Shown in pieces: positions 30,601 through 33,600 of a DNA stretch of 64,000 bases. How positions within the stretch are numbered: the stretch's first letter is position 1; the number at the start of each line of letters is the position of its first letter. Made by a program: the position numbers and the translations under genes. The stretch covers positions 51,812,001 through 51,876,000 of the forward strand of contig NC_064834.1 in the NCBI RefSeq assembly GCF_024166365.1, given 5' to 3'. Below the pieces are notes generated by a model that had not been told where the DNA came from, did not search any database, and saw nothing but the letters and a program-made list of their open reading frames with translations. This DNA comes from Elephas maximus indicus. Its lineage: Eukaryota; Chordata; Mammalia; Proboscidea; Elephantidae.

Positions 30601-33600
30601 AATAAACATGGGAAAACACAGAAATCAATCTCACGGAAGAACATCACATTTCTCTTCAATACACACATTCTGGCCCTAAGCCACCTAAAAGAAGACTAGA
30701 AGGAAACCTAGGGGTTTAAGTATTCACGATGACAGGAAGCATTAACTTAAATTACAAGGCTGAGATTAAATACAGAACAGTGGTGATTCAGTTGTAGGAC
30801 TCTCGCCTCCCACACAGGAGACCAAGGTTTGATTCCCGGCCCGTGTACCTCATGTGCAGCCACCACCCATCTCTCAGTGGAGGCTTGCATGTTGCTATGA
30901 CGCTGAACAGGTTTCAGCAGAATTTTCGGACTAAGACAAACTAGAAGAAAGGTCTGGTTATCCATATCCCAAAAATCTCCCAATGAAAACCCTATGAATA
31001 ACACAGCCCAATTCTGTTGTGCATGGGGTCACCATGAGTCAGGGGCTGACTCAATGGCTAACAAAATTAAATGACATCTACATTTTCCTGAGTTCTGAAA
31101 AATCTGCAGCAAATGGTAAAAAGTATCTTCTGAATCCAAAAATTTATAATCACATAGAACTTGCAAAAGTAGTCACAGTCTAATTTTATTTTGTCATCTT
31201 GTGTTAAAAGATATGTATTTACTACGTGTCTCTCATGGTAAAGATACTCTTCTGGGTAATCAGATGCTTATTTCAAATATTCTAAGATGTTGTTAAAACA
31301 GAACATTCACTAAGGCTCCACATAAAACTGTGCTAACGTACTAGGCAAAAAACCTGAGACAGAAAAACTGTGTACATATAGAAATCCAGATTCTCCATGA
31401 TAACAGTAGCCCAGGAGCCTGCCTCTATGGAAACCAAACAATGTTCTAAACCAAGCAGTCACTGGTTTGCATTTCTAGTTGTGTTCCCAATTCTGGCTCT
31501 TATTTTTAGAGCAGCAACAAATACTTAACAGAAAGCCTGCTGCATACCACTATAAAATAGAGACGGGAAAAGTCAAGCTTCCCAAGCTGCCTAGCTCATA
31601 CTTCTAACGCATGTCAAGAGAGTGAGGTGGTTCATCACAACGTATGCTATGACAATTGTACTCTGAACTTTAGCTCCTCCGTTTAAGTAAATGCTACCAT
31701 CTGCTTAAGCAATAAGGAAATCCATCTCCACCCACAAGTGTGGTAACTGCTCCTGTTACACCTGTCTATCCAGTGTGGGGGCTTCCCTAGGAATCACTCA
31801 CCTGCACAGATCTGAACGTAGTAATGAAAGGCAACATGATATGATAGCCTGGTCCACTGGGGCTAGTTAGTAAAGCTCCTCCCCTGCAAAAAGATGTTTC
31901 AATTTGACAAGATTATAAAGAGAGAAATTCTCTAAATCTAAAATGCTAAAACAAATATTCACTCTTACTCATGCTACTGACCTAATAAAGCCTTACTAAC
32001 ATGAGTTATTCATGGTGAACAAGTGCTGCTCCCTAAAATACCTGCCACACCCCAAAAGGTGAAAAGATCAAGCCAAACTGCTGGATGTTACACCTTGTTT
32101 CATAAGCTGGACCAACTATACCTCTGGGTCTCCTGTACCACTGTCAGGTTTAAAGGATCTCCTTGGTCTTTAACCTTCTGAGAAATACTCGTGGAAAAAA
32201 GTTCCAAGGGCTCACAGTTTAATCATACATAAAGAGAGTCAGATGAGAACATTTAATCACCGGGTTGAAAAAAAGAAGACACAAACTTTCAAGGAAGGAG
32301 AAAATTTCTGAGGCTCGAGATTCTTTTAATCTATGTGCAATAAAACTAAAATACTGACTGTATAAAGTATATAAAAACAGGAAAAAAATTAGCATGGAAA
32401 GATGAATGGTAAGGGGGTAAGATTATAAGTAGACAGGATATGAACATGGACTTGTTCTCCAAACAAATGAATGTGAGAAAGCCCACCTCAAAAATTATAA
32501 AAAAGGAGGCATTTTGGGAGCAAATATTTTAAAAGTCCTACTTTACACAGTTAATAATAAATTCATAGAACTTAAAGTTTATTATTCTGAAAATATGAAT
32601 AGGTTTGCAAAGAACTCATGACAAATAACTAAGGAGAGATGAAATATTTAAGGCTCATCCCTCATTCTTTCAGAGCCATACCCTGAATTGTGCTTTCCTT
32701 GGTTTCACTGTCAGGAAGAAAATGCTCAGCTAGACAGAAAATTGAATAATCTGTCATTTCTTATGCTAATATTGTAGTTGAAACTAGCTCCTCACACTGA
32801 AGACTGTTTCTAAGACTCAAGATGGCTCTAAAAGAAGAAATACCAAGTTGAGGGACAGATAAAAACAAGCAAAAAGTTGAAGCTCTTTTTGTAAACACCA
32901 CTATCCCAATTTCTCCACAAATTGTCCTCTCTTACTAGTCTAAATCAAAAGGACCTGGTGGTAATTATGCTAAAGGAAAGGCTCTGCAAGCTCAACTAGA
33001 CAGTAACATATTTCATACTATTCGTCTCAACTCGAAAAGTAAAAATAAGGTGGGAGGAGGGTGGCTCATCAATCCTGTTTATGTCCCTCAAGATCCAGGG
33101 ATACAACAACTGCCATGGTCATCAAGGCCTCATAAGCGAGACACTTGAGGGCTTTAAAAGGAAAAATCCAAGAAACAACCATAAACAGGTCTGGATTCTC
33201 TAAACAGCATCTGTAACTACAAACTAAAAGTTTGTGCAGTTAGATGGAATATAACAATTTACCCATCTCATTGGTTACCGCTGGAGTAACTACTCACTGC
33301 CTGCTTGCCTTTCTACAAATAACTAAGTGTTGTATATGAAGAATAACAGCCAGGGGTCTAAATCTCTGCAACAAAATGTATGTAGGACGAACACTGTCAA
33401 ACACCTGGAGGGTACCCTAAAAAGCCTGCTGCTGTTGCCCATACTTTCCCTTGGGCACTTCCTAGGACTGGGGAGCGCTCGCTCTTCAGGACGCTGCAGA
33501 GGGAACAACTTCTCCACTCTACTTTAAAGGAGTCCTCTTTCCATCTGCTCTAGAACCTGAACTGGCTGCACACGCCACTCACCTGTAGTACACAGCCAGG

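Follow-up and report, generated by a model that had tools for sequence, protein, structure and literature searches.

A tRNA-headed SINE with sequence from both ends of an RTE LINE in the genome of Elephas maximus indicus

Described SINEs with RTE sequence

SINEs mobilised by Bov-B, the AfroSINE included, reportedly contain fragments from the 5' as well as the 3' region of the LINE, a result credited to Gogolevsky 2008. In Table 1 of PMC3747384 the Afro SINEs (AFRO_LA and PSINE1), found in all afrotherians, are listed with a tRNA promoter and an RTE1 tail, and Bov-tA, which has a tRNA-Glu head, is paired with Bov-B. The cited part of that paper, where reference is made to Gogolevsky 2008 and Gilbert 2008, also describes RTE1-N1_LA as having the 5' end of RTE for its promoter and RTE1_LA for its tail. 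According to a passage of PMC11292518, AfroSINEs account for 5.52% of the manatee genome. The AviRTE SINEs have bipartite tails made of 5' and 3' UTR (PMC4844689, in the part cited), and RTE elements are described in a passage of PMC7245038 as often yielding bipartite non-autonomous derivatives, to which a head from a non-coding RNA is sometimes added.

Here we describe a SINE in a window of 64,000 nucleotides (the whole stretch of elephant DNA that was analysed). As regards its anatomy and its dependence on RTE, it is very probably a decayed member of an AfroSINE-like family of SINEs that have a tRNA head and depend on RTE. It is like the AfroSINEs of the cited table in its tRNA promoter and RTE1 tail, a likeness at the level of description. 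With the Bov-tA/Bov-B pair, as listed there, it has in common a tRNA head joined to Bov-B/RTE LINE sequence, and differs in host group, in LINE and in the tRNA-Glu head of Bov-tA; we infer that the two are independent in origin. The parallel with Bov-tA/Bov-B that had been drawn by the initial annotation is an apt one, since Table 1 of PMC3747384 holds both SINE/LINE pairs. The bipartite SINEs of birds (AviRTE) and hagfish, in the passages cited, likewise consist of a head, a piece of RTE 5' UTR and an RTE 3' end, and differ in hosts, RTE lineages and heads. RTE1-N1_LA, again compared by description, combines an RTE 5' end with an RTE1_LA tail, and the cited text gives it no tRNA. The tRNA-RTE architecture is thus already known in afrotherians, and the idea is not new.

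Anatomy of the SINE in the window and in the genome

The SINE copy spans 30775-31065 and is flanked by imperfect target-site duplications (Table 1). It had been placed at 30772..31065; the end was right and the start was not, 30765-30774 being the left duplication. Its head is degenerate. The body is collinear with the 5' region of RTE, as had been proposed, at the identity given in Table 1. Relative to RTE nucleotides 1-206 it has lost 12 nt at 30876/30877 and 48 nt at 30904/30905. The initial annotation had noted one missing RTE block of about 55 bases; that block is indeed absent, its size is 48 nt, and the account was incomplete in not listing the 12-nt loss. The window copy is of the short-tail form and lacks 45 nt more of the RTE tail at about 31004..31011.

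Table 1. Coordinates of the features discussed, as positions in the window
Feature	Position	Strand	Basis and remarks
Left target-site duplication	30765..30774	+	ATTAAATACA; sequence; 7-nt exact match to right flank
tRNA-Gly-like head, presumed pol III promoter	30775..30847	+	Alignment with 39 other copies; end approximate
Short linker, head to RTE part	30848..30859	+	Alignment; RTE match starts at 30860
RTE 5'-UTR-derived body	30860..31003	+	RTE nt 1-206; 110/144 identical
Junction of RTE 5' and 3' parts	31004..31011	+	Consensus alignment
RTE 3' tail, terminal AACAAA	31012..31065	+	31012-31064: 44/52 identical to RTE 3' consensus
Right target-site duplication	31066..31076	+	ATTAAATGACA; 7 exact bases common to left flank
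Near-full-length, broken RTE-type LINE	43985..47645	-	9-bp duplication GTGTTTAGT at 47646-47654 and 43976-43984
RTE 5' UTR homologous to SINE body	47437..47645	-	Profile matches, alignment; CCACCAC...GTGGTGG inverted repeat at start
3' end of second RTE copy, homologous to SINE tail	61830..61888	+	Copy 60901-61902; E=3.1e-6
Second SINE	16371-16487	-	Profile match
Second SINE	18503-18610	+	Profile match
Second SINE	34890-35033	+	Profile match
Second SINE	41936-42056	+	Profile match
Second SINE	42864-42979	-	Profile match
Second SINE	43096-43194	-	Profile match
Second SINE	55809-55920	+	Profile match
Second SINE	58734-58847	+	Profile match

For the genome-wide comparison we searched the 3.40-Gb, 64-contig assembly and scored the best 40 of 5668 first-look candidates, the window copy included. 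These copies are the best-scoring ones and not a random sample, and all 40 were read and aligned. In every one of them the head, the body and the tail each scored above the best of 300 shuffles, and the copies are 83-88% identical to their consensuses. By block score, ten carry a long RTE tail and 30, the window copy among them, a short one; the long and short consensuses are separated by gaps of 40 and 5 nt in the tail (45 nt in total). Duplications of at least 7 nt flank 15 of the 40 copies, compared with 6.7% of 1560 mismatched flank pairs, and those of at least 9 nt flank 5 of the 40, compared with 1.0%. The other 25 copies have no duplication of at least 7 nt, which may fit old age. A pattern for the junction of the 5' and 3' parts had 91 exact matches in the genome and its reversed control none; such exact patterns overlook diverged copies and other junctions.

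The identification of the head as tRNA-Gly-like was borne out at the level of the family, the window copy itself being uncalled. ARAGORN found a tRNA at the head of 16 of the 40 copies (11 Gly, 2 Arg and one each of Glu, Ala and Trp) and none in the remaining 24, the window copy included. The Rfam tRNA model scored above its cut-off in four of the six SINE loci scanned (of the 40), and not in the window copy, where Rfam returned nothing up to E=5.

Matches of the SINE to both ends of the RTE consensus exceeded all shuffled controls. Against the RTE consensus, 30860-31003 scored 58.2 at the 5' end and 31012-31064 scored 29.8 at the 3' end, where the best of 1000 mononucleotide shuffles reached 24.9 and 16.8, respectively. 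The 5' match to the diverged RTE copy of the window (E=5e-13 and 1e-4) had a score that none of 500 dinucleotide shuffles attained, so that the SINE does align with RTE beyond its 3' tail. The derivation of the tail from RTE, as initially proposed, held against the RTE consensus and against the second RTE copy of the window (61841-61885, E=1.3e-6), and was weak against the near-full-length copy at 43985-47645 alone (E=1.8): shuffling attained its score once in 500 trials on the last 75 bases and three times in 500 on the whole body. Other RTE copies were therefore needed for the 3' claim. A profile built from 28 SINE copies detected both 5' pieces of the window RTE (E=2.9e-23 and 1.7e-6) and the 3' end of the second RTE (E=3.1e-6), and had no match at E<=10 on the reversed window. 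Between consensuses, the long-form SINE and the RTE 5' end are identical at 131 of 154 positions from RTE nucleotide 1 to the junction (an alternative figure, 139/165, extends 11 columns beyond the junction). RTE 3' ends were present in 17 of the 20 places fetched, two being incomplete, and the consensus of these ends agrees with the SINE tail at 96 of 120 positions in the long form and 53 of 61 in the short form. The two-ended match that had been predicted is thus common to other genomic copies (40/40 scored). Matches to the single diverged RTE copy of the window are fragmented, as they might be if the 5' resemblance were due to chance and a conventional SINE had a LINE 3' tail alone in common, but this reading, to which we attach practically no probability, is refuted by the shuffles, by the consensus identity and by the profile search with its empty reversed control.

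The window also contains a second SINE, with another head (beginning GAGTCCCTGGGTGGTGC where complete) and the same later body and tail; it gave eight profile matches (E from 1.4e-19 to 1.3e-4; Table 1). We take this second SINE to resemble the classical AfroSINE, whose head presumably differs from that of the SINE at 30775-31065 and is closer to that of the second one. The form with the tRNA-Gly-like head may correspond to some other AfroSINE, named or unnamed.

The RTE LINE and its 5' region

The start of the RTE copy had been put at 47655 and actually lies at 47645. Its duplicated word GTGTTTAGT occurs three times on the minus strand of the window and not at all on the other strand. The copy is interrupted by an insert at 44564-45047. 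This insert, of 484 bp, starts with TGTC and ends with GACA, is bounded by a 5-bp duplication (ACAGT) and contains an AATAAA word; we take it to resemble an ERVL/MaLR-type solo LTR. When six broken pieces of the LINE were compared with Pfam, RVT_1 was above its cut-off in one (45038-45253; 72 aa, E=1.4e-7), below it in one and undetected in three; a sub-threshold match to IL31 in one piece (E=0.028) was rejected as spurious. The assignment of the LINE to the RTE/Bov-B clade is putative; the label RTE is that of the earlier reader and would agree with the literature. The 3' fragment of a second RTE copy (60901-61902) is 78% identical to the other window copy; just before it, at 60844-60879, lies a short piece of RTE in inverted orientation, which may be a product of 5' inversion during insertion.

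For the 5' region we used a query of 706 nt, which began 10 nt outside the 5' end of the RTE and extended into the element, and scored the best 40 of 16140 candidates. All 39 scored copies other than that of the window match the query from position 3-23 through 697-706 and so continue into RTE sequence, which makes the 5' region part of the LINE. Of 20 further copies, taken from another 39, 18 likewise continue into RTE sequence, and two diverge later. When RTE and SINE copies are aligned together, all 30 RTE 5' ends have the 12-nt and 48-nt blocks and none of the 40 SINE copies does. The initial annotation had itself allowed that 47420-47655 might be a SINE adjoining the RTE and lying outside it, a reading suggested by the resemblance of this region to the SINE and by its position where the RTE copy ends; it is refuted by the copies that continue into RTE, by the retention in RTE copies of both blocks that the SINE lacks, and by the 9-bp duplication, which encloses 43985-47645 as one unit, and we give it next to no credence.

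We cut out 30 RTE 5' ends as loci, that of the window included, and aligned them. At the position corresponding to the first base of the SINE body, eighteen begin with CCCCCA(C/T) or CCACCA(C/T), one mismatch being allowed; the other 12 are different there or start slightly later. RTE opens with one arm of an inverted repeat, whose other arm, GTGGGGG or GTGGTGG, lies further inside, and the change in one arm is matched in the other: the base at the third position is C, facing G, in 15 of the 30 and A, facing T, in 6, and 9 have some other combination. Of four single-strand folds, that of the RTE 5'-terminal hairpin in its window version was the sole standout (z=-2.94), with z=+1.05 for the SINE head, -1.48 for the SINE tail and -0.35 for the RTE 3' end. 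Rfam returned nothing on the RTE 5' UTR up to E=5. The inverted repeat (window 47610-47645) is retained in the SINE, with a loop shorter by 12 nt and one mismatch.

RTE copies of type B (GTGGTGG) have a mean identity of 90% to their own consensus (8 copies), compared with 95% for type A (22 copies), and on this comparison of sequences type B looks the older of the two. At 12 sites diagnostic of type the SINE agrees with B at five, with A at three and with neither at four, and these mixed sites therefore leave the founder LINE lineage unfixed. The 48-nt block is flanked in the type B consensus by two TGGA words, so that its loss fits a short-homology deletion. One stretch of 31 nt, GAGCTTCCAGACTAAGACAGACTAGGAAGAA, is identical in both SINE and both RTE 5' consensuses, and the remaining 5' part matches at 100 of 123 positions. 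Such a stretch would be expected if the machinery of RTE made use of the 5' UTR, whose RNA would act in trans alongside the 3' tail, and if SINEs had retained it on that account and not by accident of origin. In our judgement this is improbable: the second SINE keeps only the last bases of GAGCTTCCAGACTAAGACAGACTAGGAAGAA and what lies downstream, and chance can produce a single long run of identity.

Origin of the SINE

From established knowledge of SINEs, RNA polymerase III would transcribe the element from the promoter boxes of its tRNA head, and the RTE reverse transcriptase would recognise the common 3' tail and reinsert the SINE in trans. As for how the head was acquired, which is the least certain step, the enzyme copying the RNA of an internally deleted RTE probably reached its 5' end and there switched template to a tRNA. 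Such a switch at the 5' end of the RTE RNA would explain why RTE nucleotide 1 follows directly on the head and its linker of about 12 nt.

We looked for a headless parent with a query made of the body only, and scored the best 40 of 3396 candidates. Thirteen of these were already in the first set and are all headed. Of the 27 new matches, 25 have a head (score at least 30.5, where the best of 300 shuffles reached 14.5), one has a partial head and one, 5'-truncated near the start of the body, has none; headless copies with both SINE deletions were not found among these best 40 body-only matches. With an exact pattern for one form, a single copy of a headless, internally deleted RTE was found in the genome; it is 5'-truncated, keeps the 48-nt block and has a junction different from that of the SINE. 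Internally deleted RTEs therefore exist, and the direct parent of the SINE is not among the copies recovered. An apparent headless RTE derivative, indicated by nearly all matches ending at query position 252, was rejected: the 20 copies fetched, out of 39, are RTE 5' ends, and 16 nt are deleted locally from the window copy at this position.

An alternative that competes with the origin step alone, and leaves the anatomy the same, is that the 12-nt and 48-nt losses came after the joining of the tRNA, or that the SINE arose by exchange between SINEs or between SINE and LINE, there being no deleted headless direct parent. We hold this to be possible, though not the likelier course. It agrees with the lack of a headless family having both losses among the best 40 body-only matches, with the second window SINE, whose other head is joined to the same later body and tail and suggests that parts may be exchanged, and with the shorter tail of 30 of the 40 copies, which suggests that losses continued after the birth of the family. 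Against it stand the one headless, internally deleted RTE copy found by exact pattern and RTE1-N1_LA of the elephant, which in the cited text of PMC3747384 joins a promoter from the RTE 5' end to an RTE1_LA tail. Thus, of the origin initially proposed, by fusion of a tRNA to a deleted RTE, the combination of tRNA with both RTE ends is upheld, and the order in which deletion came first is the more tentative part, no headless parent with both losses having been recovered among the best 40 body-only matches.

The two-ended LINE origin of this SINE could be read in a single window and was confirmed by copies elsewhere in the genome. To the described architecture our analysis adds the exact sizes of the deletions, the fusion at RTE nucleotide 1 and the tail deletion that splits the family, details that are absent from the passages cited. 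The current view of how RTE-dependent SINEs originate is unchanged.
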